A stretch of DNA of 64,000 bases from NCBI RefSeq assembly GCF_000733935.1, contig NZ_JPON01000001.1, forward strand, positions 3,031,501 through 3,095,500. The letters run 5' to 3'. This DNA comes from Methylomarinum vadi (lineage in GTDB: Bacteria; Pseudomonadota; Gammaproteobacteria; Methylococcales; Methylomonadaceae). Below the pieces are notes generated by a model. That model saw only the letters and a program-made list of their open reading frames with translations. It ran no database searches and had not been told where the DNA came from. This document shows positions 5,747 through 24,549 of the stretch, in pieces (the stretch's first letter is position 1; every line of letters starts with the position of its first letter). Made by a program: the position numbers and the translations under genes.

Positions 5747-6105
5747 GGCTGTTTCTCCTTGATTGATGGGTTAACGTTTACTTCACTAACAGCAAAGTCG
5801 ATGCCAAGAAAATTAAAAGCCTGTAAGGTCGGTAGTATTCAATGGCCAAGGCGCTGCAAAAGCTTGATGTGTCTTGCAATTGAGTGGGGCAAGGGTTATT
5901 GTCGATGCTGACCGTTGCGCGGATGTTGGAAAAAAAAGGGGCAACTTAAGCAAAAGTGGTTAATTACAACCAATCCCAACGGTGGAAATTAACCAAATTA
6001 CCGAGGGTCAAACGCTTGGGATTTTGCTATGCTACGGACCGACGTCGTCATTTCATGCACGCGAACGAACAATCCAGGCGGCGTAAGACGAGCAAATACA
6101 AGTCC
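5747..6105. promoter_or_regulatory. divergent intergenic region between YfdX and AraC genes
   Basis: About 360 bases lie between the divergent YfdX and AraC-type genes if the regulator starts at 6106. The region must hold promoters for both. I see no strong repeats or convincing sigma-70 boxes. An open frame continues upstream of 6106 to a GTG at 5956, but its predicted peptide is unlike the family. Confidence 0.3.
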
Positions 6106-6939
6106 ATGGCGGTTAAAGCATTCACAATTCCCTCTTTATTTGAGGTGCGCTTCGCTGATCGTGCCGGAGGGTGCGAGAGGCCCCATACGCATTCCTCGTT
6201 GATTATTGCTGCCGTATCGAAAGGGACTGTTTCGCTGCAAATGAATAGCTATGAAATTTGTCTGGGAAAAGAAAAGGTTGCCGCTATCGGGCCCCATGTC
6301 CGCCATTGTGTCTGCTCTTATTCTCCTGACTTTGCCGGTGTCTATGTGTTGGAAATATCGAGCTTGCCAACGGGTTGCGAAGAATTCGACGAATTCCATC
6401 TTCAAGCATTCGGCAGCCGGGTATATCAAGGAAAAGGGAGTTATGACGCTTTTCTTGTTCTTTGCCAAACACTTTTGGGCCGCGCATCTGTCTTTGATAA
6501 GGTCAAGGTCTATATCGATTGGGTGTATCGTCTTTTCAGCGACCGTTTCAGTGGCGATTCGCCACAAATACCCCAAAGCTACGAACCGAATTCGCTTGCT
6601 AATAGAATTCGGAAAATGCTGGATGAAGAGTGGAAAGAAATCCCTTCCTACGATGATATAGCGAGGTCTTGTGGCTGCAGTAAGGAACATTGCAACCGGG
6701 TATTCAAGCAAACTTTTAATCTTACTATGCAGGCCTATTTTCTCAATCAAAAAGCTGCCAAGGCCAGGGAGTTGCTGGTTTCCGAGACAAGGCTTACCGA
6801 AATATCGCTAATGTGCGGTTTTTACGATCAAAGTCATTTTACGCGGGTATTCAAGGCGATTTATCAGATTAGCCCGCAAAAGTACCGTGAAGCCGTGTTG
6901 GAAACACGTCATTCTCATACAAGAAAAAGCGACGAATAA
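6106..6939 (+). CDS. AraC family transcriptional regulator
   Basis: 277 residues from ATG 6106. The N-terminal half looks like an AraC-type cupin sensor (PHTHSSLIIAAVSKG near residue 26, with paired His). The C-terminal 100 residues carry two helix-turn-helix motifs: IPSYDDIARSCGCSKEHCNRVFKQ and LTEISLMCGFYDQSHFTRVFK followed by SPQKYR, the classic AraC signature. The frame also stays open to ATG 6055 and GTG 5956, but those extensions are basic and uncharacteristic; no start has a good ribosome site. It sits 47 bases before two methyltransferase genes on the same strand and probably controls them or the divergent stress genes. Ligand unknown. Confidence 0.88.
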   Translation: MAVKAFTIPSLFEVRFADRAGGCERPHTHSSLIIAAVSKGTVSLQMNSYEICLGKEKVAAIGPHVRHCVCSYSPDFAGVYVLEISSLPTGCEEFDEFHLQAFGSRVYQGKGSYDAFLVLCQTLLGRASVFDKVKVYIDWVYRLFSDRFSGDSPQIPQSYEPNSLANRIRKMLDEEWKEIPSYDDIARSCGCSKEHCNRVFKQTFNLTMQAYFLNQKAAKARELLVSETRLTEISLMCGFYDQSHFTRVFKAIYQISPQKYREAVLETRHSHTRKSDE

Positions 6940-6986
6940 TCTCTATGCTTTCTCTCCATCCCTTTGTTTTACAGCCAGGAGAGAGC

Positions 6987-7751
6987 ATGATAAAGCAACA
7001 AGCGCACGATGCAGAAATCGTTAACCAGTTTTCCAAACAAGCTATTCCCTTTGCGCAATTGACCGGCCATCGCGATTCGATGCAATTGCTCGTCGAGCTG
7101 AGCAAGGTTTCCGAAGATGACTCCGTGCTCGATGTGGCTTGTGGGCCAGGATTGGTGGCTTGCGAGTTTGCCAAGATCGCCCGGCATGTCACGGGTATCG
7201 ATCTCACCGAAACCATGATCGAACAGGCCAAACTGCGGCAAATGGACATGGGGTTGACTAATCTCTCATGGGATACCGGAAACGTATTGTCTTTGCCGTA
7301 TGAATCGAATTCTTTTGCTGTCGTGGTTTCCAGATACAGTTTTCATCATTTTCTTGATCATAAAGCAGTTTTAATGGAAATGATTCGGGTGTGTAAGCAC
7401 AATGGCATGGTTTTGATTGCCGATGTCGCGTTGCCGAAAGAGAAGGTCGATGCCTACAATCGTATGGAAAAACTTCGCGATCCTTCTCATATTAAAGCGC
7501 TTTCTTTGCAAGAGTGGGAACAACTTCTGGGGGAGGCTGGATTGCGAAATCTTCGGCGAGGCAGTTATCAAGTAACTATGGAACTGGAAAAACAGCTCGA
7601 GGCTTCATTTCCGAAGCCAGGCGATGATGACAAGTTAAGGCATATATTCAGGCATGATATTGGTCCTAACTGTCTGGGTGTCGATGCGCATTGGGTGGGA
7701 ACGGACATTCACTTTTCCTATCCGATATCTGTCTATGTTGGAACAAAATAG
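6987..7751 (+). CDS. class I SAM-dependent methyltransferase
   Basis: 254 residues from ATG 6987, chosen because AGGAGAG lies just upstream. Motif I is VLDVACGPGLVACEFA, motif II has an acidic residue in GIDLTETMIEQA, and SRYSFHHFLDH is the post-motif common in UbiE-like enzymes. The protein belongs to the Rossmann-fold methyltransferases acting on small molecules or lipids; the substrate cannot be read from sequence. It follows the AraC gene closely and precedes a second methyltransferase, suggesting a small regulated operon. Confidence 0.85.
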   Translation: MIKQQAHDAEIVNQFSKQAIPFAQLTGHRDSMQLLVELSKVSEDDSVLDVACGPGLVACEFAKIARHVTGIDLTETMIEQAKLRQMDMGLTNLSWDTGNVLSLPYESNSFAVVVSRYSFHHFLDHKAVLMEMIRVCKHNGMVLIADVALPKEKVDAYNRMEKLRDPSHIKALSLQEWEQLLGEAGLRNLRRGSYQVTMELEKQLEASFPKPGDDDKLRHIFRHDIGPNCLGVDAHWVGTDIHFSYPISVYVGTK

Positions 7752-7855
7752 CCTGGATGCGATCGGATCGATGAAACATCGCGCCGCTTTTCCCTAGACA
7801 GGAGGATTCGCGGCGTTGAGCGTTTGCAACGTTATTTTATTCAAAGGATCGCACC

Positions 7856-8458
7856 ATGACGGATTTGTTTAAAGAAAAAGCGCAGGACTGGGATGCTAAC
7901 GACATGGTCAGAGGGCTTTCCACTGGCATCGCTAACGCCATTCAGGCTAATGTGGCTTTGGACGAGACGCTGCAGGTAATGGATTTCGGTGCCGGCACCG
8001 GTCTGATCGCCTTGCAAATTGCAGACAAGGTTAACAAGGTGACCGCCGTAGATGTTTCCCAGGCCATGTTGGATAAACTGCAGGCCAAGGCGGAATTGCA
8101 TGGAAAAGTTGAGGCTCTGTGCCAAAATATTCTGGAGCAACCATTGGGGATTCGTTTCGACCTGATCGTCAGCGCGATGGCCATGCATCATGTGGAAGAC
8201 ACGGATAAAATGGTTGCATGCTTGGCCGAACATCTGAAGCCGGGAGGCAGGATAGCGCTGGCCGATTTGGATGAGGAGGACGGGTCTTTTCATTCCGTCG
8301 ACGCGAAAGGGGTCTATCATACCGGCTTCGACCGCGAAACCTTGCAGTCCTTATTGTCACGACACGGTTTCAAAGACATCCGTTTCGTCACCGCCCATGT
8401 TCTGAATAAGAGCGATAGACTATATCCTGTGTTCCTTGTGCTGGCGACCGGAGCATAA
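7856..8458 (+). CDS. class I SAM-dependent methyltransferase (short)
   Basis: 200 residues with motif I VMDFGAGTGLIALQIA, acidic motif II VTAVDVSQAMLDKL, AMAMHHVEDTDKM and LKPGGRIALADLDEEDGSFH. This pattern is typical of small stand-alone methyltransferases of the Methyltransf_11/25 group. AAGGA precedes the ATG. It is distinct in sequence from the methyltransferase upstream, so this is not a recent tandem duplication. Substrate unknown. It lies 104 bases after its neighbour and may share its transcript. Confidence 0.85.
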   Translation: MTDLFKEKAQDWDANDMVRGLSTGIANAIQANVALDETLQVMDFGAGTGLIALQIADKVNKVTAVDVSQAMLDKLQAKAELHGKVEALCQNILEQPLGIRFDLIVSAMAMHHVEDTDKMVACLAEHLKPGGRIALADLDEEDGSFHSVDAKGVYHTGFDRETLQSLLSRHGFKDIRFVTAHVLNKSDRLYPVFLVLATGA

Positions 8459-9417: not shown

Positions 9418-10494
9418 CTATTTATAACCGTCCCCAGTACCCAGTAATGCGGCGATGATATTCTTCTGTATTTCCGATGAGCCGGAGAACAGGCGGCTGG
9501 CGAGCGCGTCATGGACCAGTTCCGCCAGCGGATTGTTCTGTTGCAGCCCGCAGGCGCCGAGGATGTGGACGGCGTCGAGGCTGGATTGCAGGAAGGCTTC
9601 GGCGGCGAACAATTTGGTCTGGGCGCTGGCCATGGTGATTCGTTTGTTGCCGTCCTTCAGCCTGGCGCATTCTTTGACCCATAATCGGGTAGTGTCCAGC
9701 CTCAGTTTCATGTCGGCGATTTTATGGCTGATCGCCTGGTTCTTGCCTAGATGCACACCGTTGACCCTACGTTCGCGGCTATGCTTGATCACGTAGTCCA
9801 ATTGCCAGTCCATGATGCCGCAGATACCGGCGAAGATGAATGCCCGTTCCAGTTCCAGCGCCTGCTGAATCATCATATTGCCGGAGCCGCTTCGGCCCAG
9901 TTGCCTGTCCGCAGGGACTAGGCAATTTTCCAGAATGACATCACCCATCGGGGCACTGCGACAGGCCGTTACCTGAGGTGAGTCCAAAAAGTGGGCGCCG
10001 ATGTCGTCGTGATGGACGATGAAGGCGGATAATTTATCGTCGATGCGGGCGTACACCACCAGTATATCGGCGATCGGTGTATTGGTGATGTAACGTTTGT
10101 GGCCGTTCAGCAAAAAACCGCTATCGGTGTTTATTGCTTTCATGGCGAGGGCATTCAGGTCGGAGCCTGCTTGCGGTTCGGTGATAGCATGACCGCCGAC
10201 TAACAAGCCGGACATCAGTTTGTTGATATAGTCGCCTTGTTGTTGCGGATTGCCGTAATTCAATAACGGGAACAAGGCGCCCCACAGATGGGCATTGATG
10301 GAAAGTAACAAGCCTGGATCCTGGCTGTCTTTGCCGAGCGCTTCATGGGCGTCGACCAGGTCAGTGAAACGATTGCCGTAGCCGCCGCGATTGCTATGGA
10401 TGGCGTGTTTTAAGAGGCCTTGTTGCGCGCAATGTAATAGCCGTTGTAATGAGGCGGTATGATTCCCGCCGCAGGGTAGGTCGTTCGTGTCCAT
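9418..10494 (-). CDS. L-prolyl-[carrier protein] dehydrogenase, PltE/PigA/RedW-like acyl-CoA dehydrogenase fold
   Basis: 358 residues of acyl-CoA dehydrogenase fold: GGHAITEPQAGSDL at about 100 (flavin/substrate loop), NGHKRYITN at 130, and SGSSEIQKNIIAAL at 337. The catalytic Glu is not at the usual EGT position (here SGS) but in ALELERAF, Glu216, which aligns with Glu254 of isovaleryl-CoA dehydrogenase. That placement is shared by the enzymes that oxidise carrier-bound proline to pyrrole-2-carboxyl. The start is 2 bases after the stop of the prolyl-AMP ligase gene, so the two are translationally linked. Predicted role: four-electron oxidation of prolyl-S-carrier to pyrrolyl-S-carrier using FAD. 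Function is inferred from motif and neighbour; the family is certain. Confidence 0.82.
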   Translation of the reverse strand: MDTNDLPCGGNHTASLQRLLHCAQQGLLKHAIHSNRGGYGNRFTDLVDAHEALGKDSQDPGLLLSINAHLWGALFPLLNYGNPQQQGDYINKLMSGLLVGGHAITEPQAGSDLNALAMKAINTDSGFLLNGHKRYITNTPIADILVVYARIDDKLSAFIVHHDDIGAHFLDSPQVTACRSAPMGDVILENCLVPADRQLGRSGSGNMMIQQALELERAFIFAGICGIMDWQLDYVIKHSRERRVNGVHLGKNQAISHKIADMKLRLDTTRLWVKECARLKDGNKRITMASAQTKLFAAEAFLQSSLDAVHILGACGLQQNNPLAELVHDALASRLFSGSSEIQKNIIAALLGTGDGYK

Positions 10495-10496
10495 GC

Positions 10497-11942
10497 TTAG
10501 CTAGGCTCCAATTGAAGTTTCAAAGCCTGATAATCGATTTTGCCGTTACTCAAATAGGGCAGCGTTTCCAGCACGATAAATTTACAGGGATGCATATAGG
10601 TCGGCAAGCGTTGTTTACACGTTTTAACGATGGTTGCCAGGTCGGCGCCGGGAGTGACGACCAGGGCGGCGGCCGGCCTATGACCGCTAGCACTGTCAAT
10701 GATACCAACGACAGCGCATTGAGTCACTCCCGGACATCGTAACAGGGCCGTTTCGATTTCCGCCGGTTCGACTCTGTGACCGGAACATTTCAACATGCGA
10801 TCGAGTCGGCCGTGATAGCAAACTTCGCCGTGTTCGTTCAACGAAACTTTGTCGCCGCTCGCGAAATAACCGTCGGCCGATAAGGCGTCGACCAGCCGTC
10901 CTTGCTGCCAATAACCGGAGAGGTTATTGGCGCATTTGACCAGCAGTTCGCCGTTGCTGTCGGTAATTTTTAGCTCGGCGCCGCTGGCCGGAAAGCCGAT
11001 CGGAATGGGAAGATTGTTTCGCAGGCGCCGGCGTTCGACCGGCCAATAGCAACAGACATTGGTTTCGGTGGGTCCGTATAAATTAAAGAACTCGACCCTT
11101 GGCAACAATTCGCACAATTGTTTCAACTGCGCCGTCGGGAAGACTTCCCCGGCGAATAAGATCGATTTTAGGGCGGGCAGCGGCGTGGTGGTCAAAGCGC
11201 CTTTCAGCGCGAGGAAGGCGAGTAATGAAGGTACCGTATAGAAAACCGTGATGCGCTGTTGGCTCAGCCAGGCGCTTAACCGGCTCGGCGACAGTGTCAG
11301 GCCGGCGGGAACGAAACACACCGTCGCGCCGCTGCGCAGACTGGCGAACAGGTCGAAAACGGATAAATCGAAATGAAACGGGGCCAGCGAGGCGATACGG
11401 TCGGCAGGACCAATGTTGAAAGTGCGAACCGCCCAGTCGGCAAAATTAGTCATGGCCCTGTGGCTCAGCGCAACGCCTTTCGGCGTTCCGGTGGAGCCGG
11501 ACGTATAGAGTATCGCCGCCATGGCTTCGTCATTGCGAATTTGAGGAGATGGGTAGGCGGTTGACGGCGGCTCAATAGCGGCGATATCGAGCCATAGGGA
11601 AGGGTGCTCCAGCCAGTCCGGGCAGGGGCCTTGGCCGATGATGCAATGCGGGGCGGCATCGCTGCAAATGAAGCGCAGACGGTCGGCGGGGTTTTTCATA
11701 TCCAGCGGCACATAGCATGCGCCGGCCTGCAATGTTGCCAGAATGGCGATTGTCGCGTCGATGCCGCGTTCCAGCGCGATGGCGACTCGCTCGCAGTTTG
11801 TTGATGCGGTTAATATTCTGGCACGTAGCTGGCAGGCTTGTCGTTCGAGTTGACGATAGCTGAGCCGGCGTTCTCCCTCGCACAAAGCGATGCTGTCGGG
11901 AGCGGTTCGGCATTGCCGATGAAAAGCTGAAAGTAGTGGCAT
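10497..11942 (-). CDS. L-prolyl-AMP ligase (stand-alone NRPS adenylation protein, PltF/PigI-like)
   Basis: 481 residues, a free-standing adenylation domain. Core motifs: LYTSGSTGTPKG at 145, FHFDLSVFDLF at 189, NLYGPTETN at 287, YFASGDKV at 359, GRLDRMLKCSGHRVEP at 378 and the catalytic LSNGKID with Lys468. Aligning by eye with GrsA, the ten pocket residues are D192 L193 F196 Y235 L262 A264 L288 V296 C297 K468, i.e. DLFYLALVCK, the pattern known for proline-activating enzymes of pyrrole pathways (pyoluteorin, prodigiosin, undecylprodigiosin). It would load L-proline onto the carrier protein encoded two genes upstream. It lies in a minus-strand operon with carrier, condensation-like and dehydrogenase genes. 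Confidence 0.88.
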   Translation of the reverse strand: MPLLSAFHRQCRTAPDSIALCEGERRLSYRQLERQACQLRARILTASTNCERVAIALERGIDATIAILATLQAGACYVPLDMKNPADRLRFICSDAAPHCIIGQGPCPDWLEHPSLWLDIAAIEPPSTAYPSPQIRNDEAMAAILYTSGSTGTPKGVALSHRAMTNFADWAVRTFNIGPADRIASLAPFHFDLSVFDLFASLRSGATVCFVPAGLTLSPSRLSAWLSQQRITVFYTVPSLLAFLALKGALTTTPLPALKSILFAGEVFPTAQLKQLCELLPRVEFFNLYGPTETNVCCYWPVERRRLRNNLPIPIGFPASGAELKITDSNGELLVKCANNLSGYWQQGRLVDALSADGYFASGDKVSLNEHGEVCYHGRLDRMLKCSGHRVEPAEIETALLRCPGVTQCAVVGIIDSASGHRPAAALVVTPGADLATIVKTCKQRLPTYMHPCKFIVLETLPYLSNGKIDYQALKLQLEPS

Positions 11943-11966
11943 GATTCGTTGTTTTCCGTATCGCCT

Positions 11967-13298
11967 TTACGAGGTTTGCCCCAACAGCTCCTCCAGCATC
12001 AGCTGGTGCAATCGTTCGATGAGTGCGCTGTCGGCAATCGGTTCGACGAAGTTATAGCTTAATGTCAATCGGCCCTGAAAGATGCAGCTCAAAAATGCCA
12101 GCCCCGGCGGCGTCGTCATTTGGCAGACATGAAACACATTGCTGATTTCGGCCCCCGGAAAACTACCAGGGGCTATGTCCAGCCGTCCGATATCGGAAAA
12201 CCAGAACGAGCTGCGTTCCTTGCCAGAGCCGTAAGACAGGCGCAGGGTCTTGCCGTACTCGGGCAAGGACAGCCAACTGCCGGCCCACATCAAGGGCAGA
12301 AAGGCGTAATCCTGCTGTTTGCGAATGACCTCGGCGTTTTGTCGTTTCAAGTGTTCGAAAATTCGCGAACGGTCTTTAACGATGTCGCGCGGCGCCTGGG
12401 CGAATAAGGCGCAGACATGATTCCCGGTTACCGGCGCCAGGGCACGTTGCTTGCGCAGGTTGAAGGCGTAGGGTACGCAATAGGCCTCGCCGTCACGGTC
12501 GGGATGCAGTCTTTCCAGGGCGCGCATCAAACAACCGATGTAGTAAAGACTGGTGCCGGTCAGGCCGACCGATTCTCTCGCCAGTTTAAGCACCTGTTCG
12601 GTTTGCGCTTCGCTCAGCCTGTGCAATGAATAGTTCAACCGTTGCCGGGGCCTGTCGCAATCGAAAGGCTGAATGCTTTCCAATCGGTCCAGGTTGTCGA
12701 TATAGCGCTTGCCTTTCCACAACAACGCTATTTTTTGCCACCAACGGTATTTGGCTAATTGCGCATACACCAACGGTTCGCCGAGCGGCTGGCCGAAAGC
12801 GGATCGCTGTTCAGCATCGGCTGTGCACAAAAACTTGAGGATCAAATCGGCGCCGCGAGCGTCGCAGAAGGGATGTAGCCAACGGGTGAAAAGGGTGTTT
12901 TGCCGAGGTCCCGTCAGCAGATGAAATTCGATCGGCGGAGTGCTTTCCCGTGCCAATTTTTCGTTGACGATAAGGTCGATCGTGGCGCGCTGGAATCCGG
13001 CTTCTTCCTGATCTTCCGGACACCGATGATGGAAAAATAACGGCGGCGCCTCTTCGCGTCTGCACCAGTAAAAGCGGCGGCCGATTTGCCGAAGACTCGC
13101 CTGCGCCACCGGGAAACGTTCGGCGAATTCTTCGATGCGCCGTTTGAGTTCCTCGATATTCGGCGTTTTACTTAATTCCAGGGCAAAACAGCCGTAACTG
13201 CCGGCCAGGCCGTCGCGGCGGATTTCGTCGTCCATGGCCAGAGTAAAACTATCGGCGGGATTGAGCCGTTCGAGAATAGCCTGTTTATCAGCGCTCAT
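11967..13298 (-). CDS. stand-alone condensation-domain-like acyltransferase
   Basis: 443 residues with the overall character of the condensation/WES/PapA acyltransferase superfamily. The active-site motif is WLHPFCDARGAD, with His142 and Asp146 in the HxxxD arrangement; classical NRPS C domains have HHxxxDG, so the first His is replaced by Leu. A later segment (SFWFSDIGRLDIAPG) resembles the second-half bridging motif. These enzymes move an acyl group from a carrier or CoA to an alcohol or amine. Here it may transfer the finished polyene acyl chain to a lipid or other acceptor, or pass the pyrrolyl group onto the extension machinery. The carrier gene overlaps its start by 4 bases. Exact reaction unknown. 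Confidence 0.65.
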   Translation of the reverse strand: MSADKQAILERLNPADSFTLAMDDEIRRDGLAGSYGCFALELSKTPNIEELKRRIEEFAERFPVAQASLRQIGRRFYWCRREEAPPLFFHHRCPEDQEEAGFQRATIDLIVNEKLARESTPPIEFHLLTGPRQNTLFTRWLHPFCDARGADLILKFLCTADAEQRSAFGQPLGEPLVYAQLAKYRWWQKIALLWKGKRYIDNLDRLESIQPFDCDRPRQRLNYSLHRLSEAQTEQVLKLARESVGLTGTSLYYIGCLMRALERLHPDRDGEAYCVPYAFNLRKQRALAPVTGNHVCALFAQAPRDIVKDRSRIFEHLKRQNAEVIRKQQDYAFLPLMWAGSWLSLPEYGKTLRLSYGSGKERSSFWFSDIGRLDIAPGSFPGAEISNVFHVCQMTTPPGLAFLSCIFQGRLTLSYNFVEPIADSALIERLHQLMLEELLGQTS

Positions 13299-13534
13299 GT
13301 GCTTTTATGCCGTAAAATCCATTGCTCCAGGGCGTTAAAGGATTGGACGTTATCCGGTTCGATTTCGGTATCGGGCAGAGTGACGCCGAACTCGTTTTCT
13401 ATGTACATGATCAAGCGCATGATACCCATGCTGTCGAGGCCGGCTTCCAACAAGTCGTCGTCATCGCCGAAGAGCTCCGGTTCGGCCACGAACACCAGTT
13501 CCTGAAAGATAAAGTCGCGTAGTTTCTTTTTCAT
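13295..13534 (-). CDS. acyl/peptidyl carrier protein
   Basis: 79 residues, helical and acidic, with the phosphopantetheine site EAGLDSMGIMRL; Ser35 would carry the arm. Its position, first in an operon with a prolyl-AMP ligase and a prolyl dehydrogenase, makes it the likely carrier for proline and then pyrrole-2-carboxylate (as PltL/PigG). Whether it also serves chain extension is open: no second carrier gene is seen in the cluster. The stop overlaps the start of the condensation-like gene (ATGA). Confidence 0.85.
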   Translation of the reverse strand: MKKKLRDFIFQELVFVAEPELFGDDDDLLEAGLDSMGIMRLIMYIENEFGVTLPDTEIEPDNVQSFNALEQWILRHKST

Positions 13535-13704
13535 GGTCTTGGTAAGTTATACTTATGGCGGCCAATGATAGCCGATTGCGGCTACAATAGTCACCACCAA
13601 TCGGACCGGCCGATTTTTACTCGGGCGGCATTACAACAGAGTCCGCTGCGACTTTTTAGAGATTTTTTGCAATATGAATATGGACAGGCAGGTAGGCCGG
13701 CAAC
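13535..13704. promoter_or_regulatory. divergent promoter region of the pyrrole-polyene cluster
   Basis: 170 bases between the carrier gene (minus) and the halogenase-like gene (plus). Both arms of the cluster must be transcribed from here, since genes within each arm are separated by under 30 bases or overlap. No operator was identified by eye, and no cluster-specific regulator lies next to it. Confidence 0.45.
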
Positions 13705-14955
13705 ATGGCTGAGAGAGGCAACGTCGTCATTATCGGTGCGGGACCTGCCGGCAGCATTGCAGGAGCGCTGCTGAGCAAGAAAGGGCACCGGGTGACTATC
13801 GTCGAGAGGGACGCTTTTCCCCGATTTTGTATCGGCGAGAGCCTGTTACCGCAGTGCATGGAATTCATCGCCGAGGCCGGCATGCTGGAAGCGGTCAGGG
13901 AGGCCGGGTTCCAATTGAAAACCGGCGCGGCTTTTTTGCATCAAGACAAGTATTCCGAATTTTGCTTCGCCGATAAATTTACGCCCGGTTTCGATACCAC
14001 TTTTCAGGTACAGCGCGATCGTTTCGATGCCTTACTGGCAGAACAAGCGCAAGAAATGGGCGTCGGCATCCGCTGGCGGCAGGAGGTGGTCGCGGCCGAT
14101 TTCAGCACAAAACCGGTACTAACGATCCGCGATGAAAACGGCGAGCAGTTTGATTTAAGTGTCGACTTCGTTCTCGATGCCAGCGGTTTCGGCAGAGTAT
14201 TGCCGCGTTTGCTGGAACTGGAAAAGCCTTCCGCTTTTCCATTCCGGCAAGCCTTGTTCACGCATCTGGAAGACCGCATCGACGATCCAGGATACGATCG
14301 GAATCTGATCCGAATCATCGTACATCCGCGGATGCACGATGTCTGGTTTTGGTTGATTCCGTTCAGTAACGGCCGGTGCAGTCTCGGCGTGGTCGGTAAA
14401 CCGGAGATATTCAATCAGCCCGGACTAGATAATGAAACGATGTTGCAGCGCTTTGTCGCCGAAGAGCCTGGGCTGTCAGCTCTGTTGCATAATGCCGTGT
14501 TCGATACCCCGGTGAGCAGTCTTGGCGGCTACAGCGCCAATGTCAAAAGTTTGCACGGCAACGGCTTTGCCTTGTTGGGCAATGCTGGCGAATTTCTCGA
14601 TCCGGTGTTCTCCTCCGGCGTCACGATCGCGATGAAATCAGCCAGCCTGGCCGCCGCAGTATTGGACCGCCAATTCAAGGGCGAGCAAGTTGATTGGCGG
14701 AGTGAATTCGCCGAGCCGCTGCAACAGGGCGTAGAGACATTCCGAACTTTTGTCAGTGCCTGGTATGACGGAGGATTTCAGGATATCGTGTTTTATCCGC
14801 ACTTGAAACAGGCCGAGCAGAAGAACAATATCAAACAGATGATCTGTTCGATTCTGGCCGGCTATGTCTGGGACGAGAGCAACCCCTATGTCAAAAACCA
14901 CCGCCTGCGCCTGAAGACCCTGGTCGAGTTATGCCGCGAGCCGGGATGGCTATGA
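13705..14955 (+). CDS. FAD-dependent halogenase-like oxidoreductase
   Basis: 416 residues. FAD-binding GAGPAG at 11-16; FPRFCIGESLLP at 38; Lys72 in FQLKTGAAF, at the place of the catalytic Lys of flavin halogenases; and WFWLIP at 214-219, matching the WxWxIP halogenase signature. DPVFSSGVTIAMKSA is also typical of the pyrrole/phenol halogenase branch (PltA, CmlS-like). Such enzymes use FADH2, oxygen and chloride or bromide, fed by a separate flavin reductase not seen here. Related proteins occur in xanthomonadin-type polyene clusters, where halogenation is not always found, so it may be a halogenase or a relative with another oxidative role. The stop overlaps the ketosynthase start (ATGA). 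Confidence 0.8.
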   Translation: MAERGNVVIIGAGPAGSIAGALLSKKGHRVTIVERDAFPRFCIGESLLPQCMEFIAEAGMLEAVREAGFQLKTGAAFLHQDKYSEFCFADKFTPGFDTTFQVQRDRFDALLAEQAQEMGVGIRWRQEVVAADFSTKPVLTIRDENGEQFDLSVDFVLDASGFGRVLPRLLELEKPSAFPFRQALFTHLEDRIDDPGYDRNLIRIIVHPRMHDVWFWLIPFSNGRCSLGVVGKPEIFNQPGLDNETMLQRFVAEEPGLSALLHNAVFDTPVSSLGGYSANVKSLHGNGFALLGNAGEFLDPVFSSGVTIAMKSASLAAAVLDRQFKGEQVDWRSEFAEPLQQGVETFRTFVSAWYDGGFQDIVFYPHLKQAEQKNNIKQMICSILAGYVWDESNPYVKNHRLRLKTLVELCREPGWL

Positions 14956-16133
14956 CCTTGTTTTTGAATGACCTGGGCTTGCTGTGCGCGGCGGGCAGCG
15001 AAAAGAATGAAATCTTGCGTCGATTAGTGGCCGGCGACCGCTCGGGATTGGTCAAAACCGAGCGCTATTCGCCGGGACAGGAAGTGTTTGTCGGCGAGGT
15101 ACAAGGCGATTTGCCGAAAATCGAAGCGAAATTCGCCGTTTATGATTGCCGCAACAACCGCTTGTTGCTGGCGGCGCTGAATCAGATTCGGCCGACGGTG
15201 GACGCGATGATCGCCAAGTATGGACCGGAGCGGGTTGGCGTCGTGATAGGGACGAGCACTTCTGGCGTCAGAAATACCGAGTTGGCGCTGGCCGAAGTTG
15301 CTGCTGGCAGGCCCAAACCAAACTGGTTCCATTACAAGCAGCAACAGTTTGCAGGTGGTGCCGATTTTCTCGCCCATTTATTGGAGTTGCAAGGTCCCGC
15401 TTACGCCGTGTCGACGGCCTGTTCCTCCAGCGGGCGGGCGTTCGCCTCGGCGCGCCGTTTGTTGGCGTTAGGGCTTTGCGATGCCGTCATCGTCGGCGGC
15501 GCCGACAGCCTGTGTCGCTTTACCGTGACCGGGTTCGGCGCGCTGGAATCGGTGTCGGCGGGGCATTGTAAACCCTTCGGCCAGCATCGGGACGGCATCA
15601 ATCTGGCCGAGGCGGCGGGTTTGTTTGTTCTGAGCCGGGACGAAGGGCCGGTGCGTTTGAGCGGTATCGGCGCCAGCAGCGATGCCTATCATTTCTCCGC
15701 GCCCGATCCCGAGGGCGGGTCGGTGATCGGGGCGATGGAAATGGCTTTGGCCGAGGCGGACATGCGGCCTGAGCAAATCGATTATATAAACCTGCACGGC
15801 ACAGCCACGCCGTTGAACGATGCCATGGAAAGCAAGGCCGTCGATAAGGTTTTCGGCAGGCAGATCGCGGTCAGTTCTACGAAAGGCATGACCGGCCATG
15901 CCTTGGGCGCCGCCGCCGCGCTGGAGTTGGGGCTGTGTTGGTTGCTGTTGACCAGTGACGATGAGCAAGGGCTATTATTACCGAATAGCAGCGACGACGA
16001 GCTGGACGATTCGTTGCCGGCGTTGAATTTTGTCCAGGCCGGGCAAACGTTGGGCCGGCGCATCAATCATTGCCAGAGCAATTCCTTTGCTTTCGGTGGC
16101 AACAATATTTCCATTATCGTTTCCCGGACATGA
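14952..16133 (+). CDS. beta-ketoacyl-ACP synthase, aryl-polyene ApeO-like
   Basis: 393 residues from ATG 14952, chosen because it overlaps the preceding stop as ATGA (ATG 14946 is an alternative). Thiolase-fold ketosynthase with all three catalytic residues: Cys157 in VSTACSSSG, His282 in NLHGTATP and His316 in KGMTGHALGAA. It should therefore be able to decarboxylate malonyl-carrier and condense. The N-terminal region is shorter and more divergent than in FabF. It is the first of four genes in the order KS-DH-KR-KS known from aryl-polyene clusters (apeO-P-Q-R). Predicted role: iterative chain extension of the starter. Confidence 0.87.
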   Translation: MTLFLNDLGLLCAAGSEKNEILRRLVAGDRSGLVKTERYSPGQEVFVGEVQGDLPKIEAKFAVYDCRNNRLLLAALNQIRPTVDAMIAKYGPERVGVVIGTSTSGVRNTELALAEVAAGRPKPNWFHYKQQQFAGGADFLAHLLELQGPAYAVSTACSSSGRAFASARRLLALGLCDAVIVGGADSLCRFTVTGFGALESVSAGHCKPFGQHRDGINLAEAAGLFVLSRDEGPVRLSGIGASSDAYHFSAPDPEGGSVIGAMEMALAEADMRPEQIDYINLHGTATPLNDAMESKAVDKVFGRQIAVSSTKGMTGHALGAAAALELGLCWLLLTSDDEQGLLLPNSSDDELDDSLPALNFVQAGQTLGRRINHCQSNSFAFGGNNISIIVSRT

Positions 16134-16579
16134 CGGACTGGCGGCAATTCAGCGTCGAGGAACTGGTTCCCCATGCCGGTAACATGGTGTTGCTGGAGCG
16201 GGTAATTGAATTCGAGCCGGAAAAGATGGTCGCAGAGGTGATCGTGCGCGCAGACGGGTTGTTCGGCGACGAAGGCTCGGTCCCGGCCTGGCTGGGCATA
16301 GAATACATGGCGCAAACGGTGGCGGCCTTGGGCGGCATGAAGCGGAGGCTGGCCGGCAAGGCGATCAATTTGGGCTTTTTGTTGGGGACCCGGCGTTATG
16401 AATCCAATGTGGACCGGTTTGCGGTAGGAACGGTTCTGACGGTCGGCGTTCGGCATGTGATCCAGGACCAGGGGCTGGGCGTGTTCGATTGCCGTATCGA
16501 GGCTGATGGCATTGCGGCGTCGGCCAAACTGAATGTGTATCAACCCGATTCCGCGGTGAACCGGGTAATAACCGATTGA
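16130..16579 (+). CDS. 3-hydroxyacyl-ACP dehydratase, hotdog fold, ApeP-like
   Basis: 149 residues from ATG 16130, which overlaps the ketosynthase stop (ATGA); the longer frame to 16070 is rejected for that reason. Hotdog-fold features: His15 in LVPHAGNMVLLERV, the FabZ-type catalytic His, and Glu58 in WLGIEYMAQTVAALGG on the central helix. It would dehydrate the 3-hydroxyacyl chain in each cycle so that conjugated double bonds accumulate, since no enoyl reductase is encoded nearby. Second gene of the KS-DH-KR-KS cassette. Confidence 0.84.
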   Translation: MTDWRQFSVEELVPHAGNMVLLERVIEFEPEKMVAEVIVRADGLFGDEGSVPAWLGIEYMAQTVAALGGMKRRLAGKAINLGFLLGTRRYESNVDRFAVGTVLTVGVRHVIQDQGLGVFDCRIEADGIAASAKLNVYQPDSAVNRVITD

Positions 16580-16586
16580 ATAGAAA

Positions 16587-17312
16587 ATGAATGAAACAAT
16601 ATTGGTGACTGGCTCCAGTCGCGGTATCGGCAAGGCCGTAGCCTTGTATTTGGGACGTCAGGGTTTCGATGTGGTGGTGCATTGTCGGAGTCGCCGCGAC
16701 GAAGCGGAACAGGTGACGACGCAGTTGCGGGAGATGGGCCGGCAATCCCGGGTGCTGCAATTCGATTTGGCCGACCGCGAGCAATGCGCGCAGGTTTTGA
16801 GCGACGATATCGAGGCTTATGGCGCCTATTATGGCGTGGTCTGCAATGCCGGCATCAGCGCCGACAACGCCTTCCCGGCGATGAGCGGCGAGGAATGGGA
16901 CAGTGTCGTGCATACCAATCTGGACGGCTTTTACAATGTGCTGAATCCGCTAATCATGCCGATGATCCGGCGGCGCAAGCCGGGACGCATCGTGACGCTG
17001 TCCTCCGTGTCGGGAATGATCGGCAATCGCGGCCAGGTCAACTACAGCGCGGCCAAGGCCGGCATCATCGGCGCCACCAAGGCGTTGGCGCTGGAGCTGG
17101 CCAAGCGCAATATTACGGTCAATTGCGTCGCGCCGGGACTGATCGATACCGAAATGGTGGAAAATTTGCCGCTGGACGAGATCAAGAAAATGATTCCAAT
17201 GAGGCGGGTCGGCGCCGCCAGGGAAGTGGCCGCGACGGTGGCGTTTCTGCTGTCGGAGGATGCCGCCTATATCACCCGCCAAGTGATCTCGGTCAACGGA
17301 GGATTATGCTGA
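16587..17312 (+). CDS. 3-ketoacyl-ACP reductase, ApeQ/FabG-like
   Basis: 241 residues of short-chain dehydrogenase: nucleotide motif TGSSRGIG at 8-15, CNAG at 86-89, and the catalytic set Asn111, Ser140, Tyr153 and Lys157 (YSAAK), ending in SVNGGLC as FabG proteins do. Reduces the beta-keto group in each elongation round with NADPH. It begins 7 bases after the dehydratase stop, and its own stop overlaps the next ketosynthase start. Confidence 0.88.
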   Translation: MNETILVTGSSRGIGKAVALYLGRQGFDVVVHCRSRRDEAEQVTTQLREMGRQSRVLQFDLADREQCAQVLSDDIEAYGAYYGVVCNAGISADNAFPAMSGEEWDSVVHTNLDGFYNVLNPLIMPMIRRRKPGRIVTLSSVSGMIGNRGQVNYSAAKAGIIGATKALALELAKRNITVNCVAPGLIDTEMVENLPLDEIKKMIPMRRVGAAREVAATVAFLLSEDAAYITRQVISVNGGLC

Positions 17313-18535
17313 TGAAACGGGTCGTGGTGACAGGGATGGCTGCTCTCACGCCGTTGGGCAACGATTGGGATACGGTCGCGAAAAAACTGAAGACGCAGAT
17401 TACTGGCATCAGGCACATGGCCGATTGGGACAAGTATAACGGTCTCAATACCCGCTTGGCCGCGCCGGTCGATTTTTCTAGGCCCGAGCATTATACCCGC
17501 AAACAGGTGCGCGGCATGGGGCGGGTGGCGATGCTAGGCACTTATGCGACGGAGCTGGCGTTGCTCGATGCCGGTTTGCTGGACGATCCGATCCTGCGCA
17601 GCGGCCGGGTGGGCGTCGCCTACGGCAGTTCTTCGGGCAGTTTCGACGGGCTGATCGATTTTACCAAGATGCTGTTGAATTTCGACAAGGGCAGCCTGAA
17701 CGCGACGTCCTATATCCGCATGATGGGGCATACCTGTCCGGTCAATATCAGCCTGCATTTCAGCATCAACGGCCGTATCATTCCGACATCCAGTGCCTGT
17801 ACTTCCAGTAGCCAGGGCATCGGTTATGCCTATGAGGCGATCAAGCATGGTCAGCAATTGATCATGGTGGCCGGCGGTAGCGACGAGTTGTCGGCCTCGC
17901 AGGCCGCGGTTTTCGATACCCTGTTTGCCACCAGCCTGCGCAACGACGAGCCGGATAAAACGCCTCGTCCGTTCGATCAGGACCGCGACGGGCTGGTGAT
18001 TGGCGAAGGCGGCGGCAGCTTCATTCTAGAGGAGCGCGAGCACGCCTTGAGCCGGGGAGCGAAGATTTATGCCGAGATCATCGGTTTCGGCACCAATTGC
18101 GACGCCTTGCATGTGACCCAGCCCGACAGCGACAGCATGCAGGTGGCGATGCGGTTGGCTTTGCAGGATTCTGGCCTGGCGGCGGAGGCGATCGAATATG
18201 TCAGTGCCCACGGTACCGCCACCGAACTGGGCGACATCGCCGAAAGCCAGGCTACATTAGCCGTGTTAGGCGACCGCACGCCGATCAGTTCGATGAAGAG
18301 TTATACGGGGCATACCCTAGGCGCCTGCGGCGTAATTGAGGCTTGGGCTGCTTTACGGATGATGCGGGAAGGCTGGTTTCATCCGACCGCTAACCTTCAG
18401 CGGGTGGATCCCGCTTGCGCCGAGCTCGATTACATCATGGGGGATGTGCGCCGGCTGGATTGCGAGGTTCTGATGAGTAACAATTTCGCCTTCGGCGGCA
18501 TCAATACCTCGCTGATATTCAGGCGGGTTTCGTAG
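17312..18535 (+). CDS. beta-ketoacyl-ACP synthase II-type, ApeR-like
   Basis: 407 residues from ATG 17312; GGAGG at 17298-17302 gives a 9-base spacing to this codon, better than the 3 bases to ATG 17306. FabF-like start MKRVVVTGMAALTPLGN and a complete triad: Cys163 in SSACTSSSQ, His300 in SAHGTATELGD and His334 in SYTGHTLGA. With both ketosynthases catalytically complete, neither looks like a chain-length factor lacking the Cys. By analogy with aryl-polyene systems one may prime and the other extend, or they pair. The end overlaps the convergent methyltransferase gene by 17 bases. Confidence 0.87.
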   Translation: MKRVVVTGMAALTPLGNDWDTVAKKLKTQITGIRHMADWDKYNGLNTRLAAPVDFSRPEHYTRKQVRGMGRVAMLGTYATELALLDAGLLDDPILRSGRVGVAYGSSSGSFDGLIDFTKMLLNFDKGSLNATSYIRMMGHTCPVNISLHFSINGRIIPTSSACTSSSQGIGYAYEAIKHGQQLIMVAGGSDELSASQAAVFDTLFATSLRNDEPDKTPRPFDQDRDGLVIGEGGGSFILEEREHALSRGAKIYAEIIGFGTNCDALHVTQPDSDSMQVAMRLALQDSGLAAEAIEYVSAHGTATELGDIAESQATLAVLGDRTPISSMKSYTGHTLGACGVIEAWAALRMMREGWFHPTANLQRVDPACAELDYIMGDVRRLDCEVLMSNNFAFGGINTSLIFRRVS

Positions 18536-19217
18536 CGACCAGATTGAGCAGCGTTTCTTCGCGTTGCTGGGATGGATGAAAACCGAAAAATTCGCAGATG
18601 CCCAAATCCCAACGGCTCCACCAAAGATAAGGCTTGGAAATGGTTTCGGGCGCGACGCTGAAACCCGTAGCTTGAATCAATGCCAGGTATTGTTCCGACG
18701 TTTTTTGTACGTCCATCGGGTGGCGGAATAGCAGGCGAATGACCGGCGAGTGGATAAATTTGCGGCAGGATTCGGCGAACAGCAGGACGCCACCAGGTTT
18801 CAGCACCCGGTAGAATTCGCGCATGGCCTGTTCGTGCTCAATCAGATGGTGAAAGCTTTGGTGGCAGAATAACAGGTCGAAACTGTTATCCATATAAGGC
18901 AGGCATTCGGCGTTGCCCGCCGCGATGGCCACCCGAGCGCTGCATTGCCGCCCGTGCATGATGGCTTCCGGCAATAGGGTAGGATCGATTTCTATCGCGT
19001 TGATAGATTCCGGGGAGAACCGCTCGTCCAGCAACTTAAGGGAATGGCCCCGGCCGCAGCCGATATCCAAAAGTTTCGCATAACGCTCTTGTTTGTCCGG
19101 CATCAGCCGTTCCAGGTCGTTCAGAGCCAGCTTTAGCACATGGTTTAACCAAATGGATGAGTTTAAAAACCAAATGCCGAAAGCGGATTCCTTGACCCAG
19201 CGGGTATTTTTTCTCAT
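18519..19217 (-). CDS. class I SAM-dependent methyltransferase at the cluster border
   Basis: 232 residues: motif I LLDIGCGRGHSLKLL, acidic residue in AIEIDPTLLPEA, CHQSFHHLIEHEQAM and LKPGGVLLFAES. Aryl-polyene clusters often encode a methyltransferase that decorates the aromatic head. This gene converges on the second ketosynthase gene with a 17-base overlap of coding ends, so it needs its own promoter. It may modify the pyrrolyl polyene, but a role outside the pathway is equally possible on sequence alone. Confidence 0.82.
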   Translation of the reverse strand: MRKNTRWVKESAFGIWFLNSSIWLNHVLKLALNDLERLMPDKQERYAKLLDIGCGRGHSLKLLDERFSPESINAIEIDPTLLPEAIMHGRQCSARVAIAAGNAECLPYMDNSFDLLFCHQSFHHLIEHEQAMREFYRVLKPGGVLLFAESCRKFIHSPVIRLLFRHPMDVQKTSEQYLALIQATGFSVAPETISKPYLWWSRWDLGICEFFGFHPSQQREETLLNLVATKPA

Positions 19218-19321
19218 GGTATTCGATAGGTTAATGTGACGATGTGTCGGTATGACGGTCGAAACATAACCCGAATCAGCAAATTATTCAAAATTGTACG
19301 AGATATGAGGTGAATATCGTT

Positions 19322-19849
19322 ATGGGGACTATTGAAATCATTGACACCGATATTACCCAATTGCCTGTCGATGCTATCGTCAATGCCGCCAATACGTCGT
19401 TGCTGGGTGGCGGCGGTGTCGACGGCGCGATTCATCGTGCGGCCGGACCTGAATTGTTGCAAGAATGCCGGACCCTGAACGGCTGTCCGACAGGTCAGGC
19501 CAAGATCACGCAAGGATATCGCCTGCCCGCCAAATATGTCATTCATACCGTCGGTCCGGTGTGGCGGGGAGGCGCAAACAACGAGGCCGAATTGTTGGCT
19601 TCTTGTTACCGTGAAAGCCTGAAACTGGCGCAACAATACCGATTGAAAAGTATTGCCTTTCCGGCGATTTCCTGTGGCGTTTATCGTTTTCCAGTCGATC
19701 AGGCTGCAGCTATTGCCATCAACACTGTGCGACACGCTCTCGCCGACAATCCTGAACTGGAAAAGGTTTATCTGGTCTGTTTTGGACAGGCCGCACTAAC
19801 GGCGTACAATGAAGCATTTGCAAAGGGGAAGGTTGAAGATGGTCGATAA
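19322..19849 (+). CDS. macrodomain protein, O-acetyl-ADP-ribose deacetylase type
   Basis: 175 residues from ATG 19322 (GAGGTG ten bases upstream; a GTG at 19310 is less likely). Macrodomain hallmarks: [52 protein letters not shown] and [13 protein letters not shown], as in the YmdB/MacroD group that hydrolyses O-acetyl-ADP-ribose or removes ADP-ribose from proteins. Its end overlaps the msrB start, so the two are translationally coupled. Confidence 0.92.
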
Positions 19850-20234
19850 AGAAACGACAGAACAGGAATGGCGGGAAAAACTGACGCCCGAACAATTCAG
19901 CATCTGCCGGTTGAAGGGAACCGAGCCGCCCTTTACCGGTAAATACGCCGATTGCAAGAAAGACGGCATTTACCATTGTGTTTGTTGCGGCAATCCGCTG
20001 TTCGACTCCTCGGCCAAATACGATTCCGGTTCCGGCTGGCCCAGTTTTTGGGAGGTGTTGAACGAACGAAGTCTGGATCGGGTGCTCGACGAAAGCCACG
20101 GCATGCGCCGAGTGGAAGTGACCTGCCAATCCTGCGGCGCGCATTTGGGACATGTGTTCGAGGATGGGCCGGAGCCGACCGGTTTGCGTTATTGCATCAA
20201 CTCGGCGGCTTTGGAACTGAAGGAAAGAACATGA
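19839..20234 (+). CDS. msrB: peptide-methionine (R)-S-oxide reductase
   Basis: 131 residues from ATG 19839. Two CxxC zinc pairs (CVCCGN and CQSCGAH), the family motif [12 protein letters not shown], and the catalytic Cys in RYCINSAAL. Reduces methionine-R-sulfoxide in proteins with thioredoxin; no signal peptide, so cytoplasmic. It overlaps the macrodomain gene before it by 11 bases and the aminopeptidase gene after it by 4 bases (ATGA), forming a three-gene coupled unit. Confidence 0.95.
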
Positions 20235-21532
20235 ATGCTAAGGAACAGGTGCAGGACTTACTCAATTTCATCGATGCCAGTCCCAGCCCCTGGCATGCGG
20301 TCGCGACGCTAGAACAGCGTTTGCAACAATTCGATTTCGTGCGTTTGCACGAGGCCGAACAATGGTCGTTGGTGCCCGGCGGCCGGTACTATGTTATCCG
20401 CGACGGCTCCTCGATCATCGCCTTCGTGGCGGGAAGTAAGCCGCTCAGCGATACCGGTTTCAAGATTCTCGGCGCGCATACCGATTCGCCTGGGTTGAGG
20501 GTCAAGCCGAATGCCATCGGTTTGCTCGATGGCGTGATCAGGGTCGGCGTCGAGGTTTATGGCGGGCCGATCCTGGCGACCTTTACCGATCGCGATTTAA
20601 GTTTGGCGGGCAGGGTCAGTTATAAGGCCGACGATGGGGCTATCGCCAGCCGTCTGTGCCGCTTCGACCAGCCTTTGCTGCGTCTACCAAATCTGGCGAT
20701 CCACATGAATAGGAACGTCAACGACGAGGGTTTGAAACTGAACAAGCAGCTGGAACTGCCGTTATTGTTGACGACTTTTGCCGAGGAACAGTTGCCGCCC
20801 GCTTATTTTTATCAGTTGTTGCAGCAGGCAACCGCCATCGATAAAGAGCGGGTATTGAGTTGGGAGCTGCAGGTTTACGATACCCAGAAGGGAGTATTTT
20901 GGGGGCCGAGCGAGGAATTTTTCGCCGACAGCCAACTGGACAATCTGGCTTCGTGTCATGCCGGATTGAGCGCCTTACTCGATGAGAACAGTCTAAATGC
21001 GGAGGCTACATCGGTCTGCGCATTTTTCGATCACGAGGAAATCGGCAGCGAAAGTCACAAGGGGGCGGACGGCTGTTTTTTACCGGATGTGTTGGAAAGG
21101 ATGTCGCGCGCCGTGGGGGAAGACCGGGACGGCTATCAACGGGCGCTGGCGCGCAGTTTCATGATCAGCGCGGATATGGCGCACGCCTATCAACCCAATT
21201 TTCCCAATGCCTACGAGCCCGATCATAAGGTCATGATCAACCGGGGGCCGGTCATCAAGGTCAACGCCAATCAACGCTATACGTCGGAAAGTTTGTCCGA
21301 AGCAATGTTCATGGAATGGTGCCGACAAGCGGAAGTGGGCTGGCAACAATATTCCCATCGCACCGATATCGCCTGCGGCAGCACCATCGGGCCGATGCTA
21401 TCGGCCAGGTTGGGCGTTCGTACCGTCGATATCGGAAATCCGATGTGGGCAATGCATAGCGCACGAGAATCCGCCGGAGTGTATGACCATATTGATTTGA
21501 TTAAGGTATTGCGCTGTTTTTTTGCAGGATAA
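20231..21532 (+). CDS. M18 family aminopeptidase
   Basis: 433 residues from ATG 20231, overlapping the msrB stop. M18 metallopeptidase motifs: [14 protein letters not shown] (first metal His and Asp), [16 protein letters not shown] (general base and metal Glu) and [19 protein letters not shown] near the C-terminus with further metal ligands. A cytoplasmic, dodecameric enzyme in homologues, cleaving N-terminal acidic or other residues from peptides. The open frame extends far upstream but that part overlaps msrB. Confidence 0.93.
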
Positions 21533-21610
21533 TAGCTTATGACGGGAAATGGTCTATGCTTATAGTCTTACATAATATTTTTTTCACATAATTCAAGGAT
21601 ATCTGGTTGC

Positions 21611-21634
21611 CGGATCACCGCGCTTGGTGATCCG
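21611..21634. terminator. hairpin between the M18 and YfiR genes
   Basis: CGGATCACC and GGTGATCCG make a 9-bp perfect stem with a 6-base loop. It ends 15 bases before the YfiR ATG, so it could be the end of the upstream transcript or a 5' leader structure controlling YfiR translation. No U-run follows. Confidence 0.4.
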
Positions 21635-21649
21635 CCGGGTAACAAATTG

Positions 21650-22168
21650 ATGCTGCTTCGACGGATAGTATTAGTTTTTTGTATTTCCTCTTTGGCCCTG
21701 GCTAATAGCCAACCAGCGTTGGAATATAAGATCAAGGCAGCCTATCTGTATAATTTCACCAAATTCATCACCTGGCCCGAAAAGCACAGCGAAACCTTTA
21801 ATTTGTGCATTTTCGGCGCCGATCAATTTCTAGCATTGTTGAAGCCGTTGGAGCAAAGGACAGCTCTGGGGAAGCCTATTCGTTTACAACGGCTCGATAC
21901 GATCGATCAAGCCAAAATGTGTCATATCCTTTATATGGACGACGGCGAACCATTGCCCGCCTTCTTAACCGACGGCTCCTTGGATGGCATCTTGACGGTC
22001 AGCAGCCAACCATTTTTTGCTCAACGGGGCGGCATGATCGGTTTTATCCTGCGTGATGGCAGGATAAAACTGCAAGTGAATCTGGAGGAATTCAAAAAAA
22101 ATGGCTTGAAGATTAGTGCGAAGCTGATGGAGGTTGCGGAATTGGTTGAAGGAGAGAGCGATGATTAG
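21650..22168 (+). CDS. YfiR family periplasmic regulator (DUF4154)
   Basis: 172 residues with a signal peptide (RRIVLVFCISSLALANS) followed by the typical EYKIKAAYLYNFTKFITWP and a C-terminal GGMIGFILRDGRIKLQVNL. Cys residues are present as in YfiR. In Pseudomonas, YfiR binds the periplasmic part of the diguanylate cyclase YfiN and represses it. Here the next gene, overlapping by 8 bases, is a cyclase with a periplasmic sensor, so the same pairing is expected. The start ATG 21650 is preferred over TTG 21647. Confidence 0.88.
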   Translation: MLLRRIVLVFCISSLALANSQPALEYKIKAAYLYNFTKFITWPEKHSETFNLCIFGADQFLALLKPLEQRTALGKPIRLQRLDTIDQAKMCHILYMDDGEPLPAFLTDGSLDGILTVSSQPFFAQRGGMIGFILRDGRIKLQVNLEEFKKNGLKISAKLMEVAELVEGESDD

Positions 22169-24530: not shown

Positions 24531-24549
24531 TATTGGCTTTTAATTTTTT

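Follow-up and report, generated by a model that had tools for sequence, protein, structure and literature searches.

The window studied here, the whole stretch of 64,000 nucleotides that was analysed, comes from the genome of Methylomarinum vadi, which measures 4.34 Mb on one contig and carries a methane/ammonia monooxygenase gene (PF02461, 1.2e-128). Between positions 9418 and 19217 it holds ten genes, among them a predicted pyrrole-2-carboxyl module and a ketosynthase (KS) cassette of the aryl-polyene (APE) type. All ten frames are open and correctly placed; the gene starts were taken from a home-made caller and some may be misplaced, and the open frame of the dehydratase extends back from its ATG to a TTG at 16070. 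Pfam or NCBIfam placed nine of the genes in the families expected for them; the condensation-like (C-like) enzyme was the one without a match. They are arranged in two divergent groups (Table 1). The minus-strand group consists of the carrier protein, the C-like enzyme, the ligase and an acyl-CoA dehydrogenase-like protein (ACAD), and the plus-strand group of a flavoprotein (FDH), KS1, a dehydratase (DH), a ketoreductase (KR) and KS2, which overlap or nearly do so. Scans for promoters and terminators in the cluster gave nothing better than shuffled sequences.

Table 1. Genes of the divergent cluster (window positions) and the matches that identify them
Gene product	Position	Strand	Evidence
Predicted prolyl-carrier-protein dehydrogenase (PigA/AnaB-like ACAD)	9418..10494	-	PigA/RedW models best; best PDB match 4irn
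Stand-alone adenylation enzyme, predicted prolyl-AMP ligase	10497..11942	-	TIGR01733; code DLFYLALVCK
Condensation-like enzyme, HPxxDAxG-type motif	11967..13298	-	H142 and D146 conserved in all of 37 sequences
Carrier protein of the pyrrole module	13295..13534	-	PF00550 3.8e-11; DSM serine site at residue 34
3nix-like flavoprotein, halogenase superfamily	13705..14955	+	Trp_halogenase 6.6e-27; goes with the APE cassette
KS1, ApeO-type ketosynthase	14931..16133	+	best PDB match 6qsp_A 1.2e-100; 46% to E. coli apeO
ApeP-type dehydratase	16130..16579	+	PF22817 2.8e-23; best PDB match 6qsr_B 1.4e-18; 35% to apeP
ApeQ-type ketoreductase	16587..17312	+	above the cut-off of the FabG2 model; 59% identical to apeQ; S-Y-K present
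KS2, ApeR-type ketosynthase	17309..18535	+	58% to apeR; ApeR set 100/100
SAM methyltransferase	18519..19217	-	PF08241 3.1e-23; tail to tail with KS2, its end inside the KS2 tail; candidate pathway role

A proline-type adenylation enzyme, a carrier protein and a prolyl dehydrogenase, the parts expected of a pyrrole-2-carboxyl-carrier module, are all present in the minus-strand group. The best named models for the ACAD were PigA (1.5e-81) and RedW (6.1e-75), both below the curated NCBIfam cut-offs, and its nearest solved relative is the prolyl-acyl carrier protein (ACP) dehydrogenase 4irn (3e-60). Its Glu216, in an L-E-R stretch, and its FSG motif are common to 4irn, 6cxt and 5zw0. The ligase just missed the cut-off of the adenylation model TIGR01733 (2.1e-88; 296.9 bits against 317.4). 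Three kinds of multi-domain synthetase headed its PDB matches, followed by 6o6e and 7thn, which the PDB labels L-proline--[L-prolyl-carrier protein] ligase. We numbered its code after GrsA and take it to indicate proline. All of 33 ligase rows from 29 genomes start with DLFY and only two hydrophobic positions vary, the last position being absent in two rows. The literal code strings did not occur in the literature searched, and a scan of viral contigs for the ligase gave no confirmed case. Models, PDB ranking, code and motifs support the complete pyrrole starter set that a first-pass annotation of this DNA had proposed. The C-like and carrier genes share 4 bases, and the C-like product carries the HxxxD motif of the condensation-domain superfamily.

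The plus-strand genes follow the apeO-P-Q-R order, and their homology to the four E. coli CFT073 genes (identities in Table 1) confirms the KS-DH-KR-KS arrangement read by the same annotation. The closest structures of KS1 and the dehydratase, 6qsp_A and 6qsr_B, are presumably ApeO and ApeP of X. doucetiae. KS1 retains its C-H-H residues, and KS2 two histidine motifs and a cysteine in the SACTS of its translation. In a KS tree, which drew a long-branch warning from the program, KS1 grouped with ApeO (17 rows, 100/98) and KS2 fell in a 20-row set with ApeR (100/100), so that both lie inside the aryl-polyene clades. Four PF00109 matches were found in the host genome: two are the window ketosynthases and the other two lie outside the APE clades of the tree.

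The flavoprotein is closest to 3nix (4.1e-111), a flavoprotein without a stated reaction, versus 1.9e-36 for PltA. It holds GxGxxG, WxWxIP and the Lys of 'LKTGA', aligned with that of ChlB4 and CmlS, which we take to be halogenase motifs. The family match and the three motifs agree with the halogenase-like flavoenzyme announced for the cluster, any halogenating activity being putative.

The other half of the aryl-polyene pathway

Homologues of apeC, D, E, F, G, H, I and J lie in that order at about 2.25-2.26 Mb of the host chromosome (locus L082), 785 kb from the cassette. The ApeC and ApeI homologues were found by PF13723 and PF22818 searches of the host genome; the former (C1:2259746; PF13723, 6.5e-59) has 6qsp_B as its best PDB match (3.9e-18) and is 28% identical to E. 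coli apeC. Two ACPs, an ApeH ligase, ApeI, ApeD and ApeJ, all expected of an APE pathway, were found there. The expected supply of an aryl acid is represented by an aromatic ammonia-lyase family gene (C1:2253048-2254595; PF00221, 1.9e-165), whose F-H motif does not assign the substrate (PAL, TAL or HAL type). No homologue of the ApeL/M/N exporter set was detected among the proteins of L082 and the window cluster, the whole host genome not having been searched for it.

With these homologues and the ammonia-lyase 785 kb away, the window ketosynthases look like half of a split aryl-primed pathway, and the plus-strand genes would be the O-P-Q-R half of one aryl-polyene pathway distributed over two chromosomal places. 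The L082 genes and the PF00109 count further suggest that the aryl polyene has its own starter supply and that the window ketosynthases are the only APE-type ketosynthases found. The first-pass annotation had noted that no ammonia-lyase or chorismatase is encoded; this is correct for the ten genes, but an ammonia-lyase and an ApeH homologue occur elsewhere in the same genome. Pyrrole as the sole starter supply here was rejected for that reason, and the proposal that it replaces the aryl starter found no support in view of the ApeC-to-ApeJ homologues, the starter ligase included. In the accessible parts of PMC8253772 and PMC8358021, ApeO-ApeC is described as the elongating pair, ApeR is linked to initiation or throughput, and ApeH is the starter ligase.

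Compared with the ape cluster of E. coli CFT073, the host shares the order and homology of O-P-Q-R and, at the second locus, the C to J homologues. It differs in that the set is split over two loci, that parts of ApeH and ApeI are fused and that ApeJ is in two genes; it adds the ammonia-lyase, the flavoprotein and the pyrrole module.

Distribution in Methylococcales

Co-occurrence was evaluated in the host and 100 relatives of its order, with statistics that ignore kinship. A pyrrole carrier at E 1e-12 or better called the module and KS2 at E 1e-110 or better the cassette; the two PF13723 classes were separated by hand on E-value. The pyrrole carrier and the strong C-like matches mark the same 32/101 genomes (individual genomes are given G numbers and loci L numbers), and KS2 of the window type is present in 43. 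Both module and cassette were found in 22 genomes, the module only in 10, the cassette only in 21 and neither in 48. An APE-type ketosynthase (KS2 or the second PF13723 class) accompanies the module in 32/32 genomes versus 29/69 of the others (p 1.4e-9, uncorrected for kinship). Hence the tie between pyrrole module and polyene cassette claimed at the outset stands as a linkage beyond chance, but not as a strict pairing, for each also occurs alone.

An ApeH-type ligase was detected in 31/32 module genomes, including G007, and not in G091; in most of them it is of the query type, which is 28% identical to E. coli apeH (1e-28). A close ammonia-lyase is absent from 24/32, G064 having a relative of only 36%, and these genomes may use 4-hydroxybenzoate, as in E. 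coli.

The two halogenase-like enzymes behave differently. The window flavoprotein co-occurs with KS2 and tracks the ammonia-lyase, which is present in 28 of the 32 flavoprotein genomes versus 1/69 others; it is found in 12/32 genomes with the pyrrole module and 20/69 without it. Since it follows the ammonia-lyase cassette rather than the module, it was rejected as the pyrrole halogenase. A second halogenase-like enzyme is the closest follower of the module among the genes tested (27/32 versus 1/69; p 2e-18, again without kinship correction), also within genomes G000-G060 (15/17 versus 1/44). In G048 it occurs without the module. The host copy (C1:2935018-2936271) lies about 105 kb from the module, and its nearest solved relatives are ChlB4, RadH, 5buk, CmlS and PltA, so that it resembles PltA, 5buk and ChlB4 where the window flavoprotein is nearest 3nix. 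This second enzyme is thus the likelier pyrrole halogenase, its halogen and substrate being predicted from these relationships. The host gene (L169:8959-10383, minus strand) overlaps a small gene that appears lipoprotein-like by eye.

The module directly adjoins the cassette in 6/101 genomes (the host, G002, G015, G041, G027 and G007); in G007 the carrier and C-like genes stand beside the cassette and the ACAD on another contig. A contig scan with two peptide patterns returned 55 named loci, some of them G genomes again (L167 = G015, L116 = G027); because only two patterns were used, distant relatives may be missed, and the scan does not confine the module to methanotrophs, although methanotroph records are among those found. 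The titles name Methylococcales, Methylococcaceae, Methylothermaceae or their symbionts, besides metagenome-assembled genomes labelled unclassified, gammaproteobacterial or, in one case, Thiotrichaceae. KS1 or KS2 of the cassette lies on the same stretch at 13/55 loci and only the flavoprotein at two more, many stretches being short. Module and cassette adjoin in Methylotuvimicrobium buryatense 5G (L167), and Methylomonas sp. LW13 (L162) and genomes of mussel symbionts (L140, L154) carry the module; strains 5G and LW13 are genetically tractable. In a C-like tree of 46 rows, 16 rows from adjacent loci, two from separate ones and L122 formed one set (100/100).

Twenty-nine f1 genomes have a KS2 at least 67% identical to that of the window, 12 of them (host included) at 76-100% and 17 at 67-74%. 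An add-on module is present in 12/12 of the closer group, eight of the pyrrole type and four of an alternative type; the C-like search found an intact one in 0/17 of the other group. The 12 add-on genomes form a 100/99 set in the KS2 tree, against three plain rows. All 12 carry the ammonia-lyase gene, with one in-frame stop each in G003 and G012. Among the 17, G052 has only a C-like remnant of 49 residues with a stop (G052:C56:17758-17904) and no pyrrole carrier match; it is perhaps a trace of module loss.

The alternative module replaces the pyrrole one directly upstream of FDH-KS1-DH-KR-KS2 in G012, G034, G053 and G004 (L062-L065), on the strand of FDH-KS1. It consists of a halogenase-like protein, an ACP, a C-like2 enzyme carrying HHxLMDAxG, an FAD oxidase and a ligase without the amino-acid Asp; this ligase was rejected as an amino-acid ligase because another residue occupies the Asp235 position.

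A second APE-like system also occurs in Methylococcales, often beside the pyrrole module (L095, L097, L100, L110, L160, L162 and others). It comprises an ApeO-like KS (42% to apeO), a divergent PF13723 partner, an ACP, halogenase-like flavoproteins, and proteins that resemble LolA and ApeM (23% to the latter).

Possible connections between module and polyene

The connection that best accounts for these data, to which we give an even chance, is that the pyrrole module is an add-on to the pathway, the C-like enzyme placing a (halo)pyrroloyl group on the aryl polyene or on its anchor. The sequences show both gene sets with their homologies, the split and the co-occurrences, and from these we infer the steps. 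The ligase would load proline onto the carrier protein, and the ACAD would oxidise the carrier-bound prolyl group to pyrrole-2-carboxyl-S-carrier. The second halogenase would probably halogenate the carrier-bound pyrrole, and the C-like HxxxD enzyme would then attach the (halo)pyrroloyl unit at a hydroxyl or amine that belongs either to the aryl polyene or to its lipid or sugar anchor. An aryl acid is the most likely primer of the polyene, because the second half of the pathway and the ammonia-lyase are encoded at 2.25-2.26 Mb. We count in favour of this capping the retention of the ApeH-type ligase in 31/32 module genomes and of the ammonia-lyase in all eight genomes that combine the pyrrole module with the closer cassette group, the presence of the C-like enzyme in 32/32, and the alternative acyl-carrier module that substitutes for the pyrrole one in four genomes.

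Several observations weigh against it. Ten module genomes lack a cassette of the window type, and module and cassette lie at separate loci in G003 and G005. Six loci of the adjacent type (L037, L123, L126, L127, L128 and L119, the last without KS1 and FDH matches) did not show the full set on their stretches. A close ACAD was found in eight of the nine genomes asked and not in G006, and five module genomes (G027, G042, G069, G081 and G096) lack the second halogenase. The C-like protein has no sequence match in NCBIfam, Pfam or the PDB, and none to a known transferase. Furthermore, a second APE-like KS class (KSn2b) is present in 23/32 module genomes, in nine of them on the same contig and at most 16 kb from the C-like gene, and such a partner beside the module would fit a starter role of pyrrole as well.

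In clorobiocin and coumermycin formation an acyltransferase passes the pyrroloyl group from its carrier to a deoxysugar hydroxyl. The transfer to a hydroxyl is like the one proposed here and the acceptor, a deoxysugar, differs. The ligase, dehydrogenase and carrier of the pyoluteorin and prodigiosin sets (PltF-E-L, PigI-A-G) belong to the same families as those of the host, but the host module has APE-type KS neighbours and a C-like enzyme with its carrier.

The nearest precedent found for the whole is arcuflavin of Azoarcus sp. BH72, which the accessible part of PMC3949708 describes with two unlinked APE loci, a halogenase-labelled gene and a polyene acid for which an ester bond to a second aromatic unit is predicted. 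That unit is a dialkylresorcinol and the starter is chorismatase-derived, and no pyrrole module appears in that part of the source. Aryl-polyene clusters are given as dominant in Methylococcaceae (PMC11964084) and aryl polyenes as common in methanotroph surveys (PMC11964084, PMC12810054), as far as the accessible text of these sources goes; the term pyrrole does not occur in their main texts. No publication whose title or abstract joins an aryl polyene with a pyrrole module was found, in a search that was thin on subscription journals; its results did include fungal polyenylpyrroles and one Lysobacter genome paper. Should the module decorate the pigment, the envelope of methanotrophs would contain a compound of mixed pyrrole and aryl-polyene character, one that would probably be filed as a plain aryl polyene. 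Two further questions open to test are the orphan C-like family and the exchange of pyrrole for non-amino-acid modules next to the same KS genes.

Less likely, at roughly half the weight of the capping, is that KS1-ApeC and KS2 also accept the pyrroloyl-S-carrier as a starter, so that a pyrrolyl polyene arises alongside the aryl one or in its place. We hold it possible but rather doubtful that a (halo)pyrrolyl head occurs on polyenes of Methylococcales, one set of type II ketosynthases accepting both ammonia-lyase-derived aryl starters and carrier-bound pyrrole and yielding two polyene families. The direct divergent adjacency in six genomes and the cassette KS at 13 of the named loci speak for such priming, as does the single set formed by the adjacent-locus C-like genes, a grouping suggestive of a single joining of module and cassette. 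At other loci the module often stands beside another KS pair (KSb-KSn2b) with an ACP and flavoproteins, and three quarters of the module genomes have no close ammonia-lyase. As told in the accessible part of PMC8253772, ApeR of X. doucetiae is required for initiation in vitro, which makes it conceivable that KS2 takes another starter. The genomes with module and closer cassette group have nevertheless kept the ammonia-lyase gene in 8/8 cases (one with a stop), the ApeH-type ligase is kept almost throughout, and seven f4 genomes hold KSn2b and the ApeH-type ligase without the module. To our knowledge, pyrrole priming in pyoluteorin and prodigiosin needs no C-like enzyme, which we also count against it.

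We judge it unlikely, somewhat more so than pyrrole priming, that the two gene groups are unrelated neighbours, the module leading to a small pyrrole amide or ester and the cassette to an ordinary aryl polyene. Their opposite strands, the separate loci of G003 and G005, and the genomes with only one of the two would fit such a coincidence. It is opposed by the APE-type ketosynthase in every module genome, against fewer than half of the others, and by the confinement of the add-on to one KS2 group among the f1 cassettes (12/12 versus 0/17). C domains normally condense a donor acyl group with the amino group of an amino acid held on a carrier. This role, together with a code and an ACAD judged on sequence alone, would leave room for an amino acid other than proline, or for a dehydroproline that the C-like enzyme, working as a genuine condensation domain, N-acylates with the polyene. 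Such a reading is very improbable given the ligase code, constant but for two hydrophobic positions, and ACAD motifs that agree with those of solved prolyl dehydrogenases, enzymes that we take to act on free-NH prolyl groups.

Neighbouring genes

The SAM methyltransferase gene had no tblastn match at 31 relative loci, and none was shown for the 55 named loci. Upstream of the cluster, an AraC-type regulator gene (assigned by eye), followed by two SAM methyltransferase genes, occupies window positions 5956-8458 with them. In L031, L035 and L036, too, a gene of the methyltransferase family comes after that for the ACAD. On the other side, genes for a macro domain protein, MsrB, an aminopeptidase, a YfiR-like protein, a GGDEF/EAL protein and a TonB receptor (by eye) were noted at 19310-26724. 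In G003 and G005 the cassette locus, which is free of the module, adjoins MsrB and aminopeptidase genes, like that of the window.

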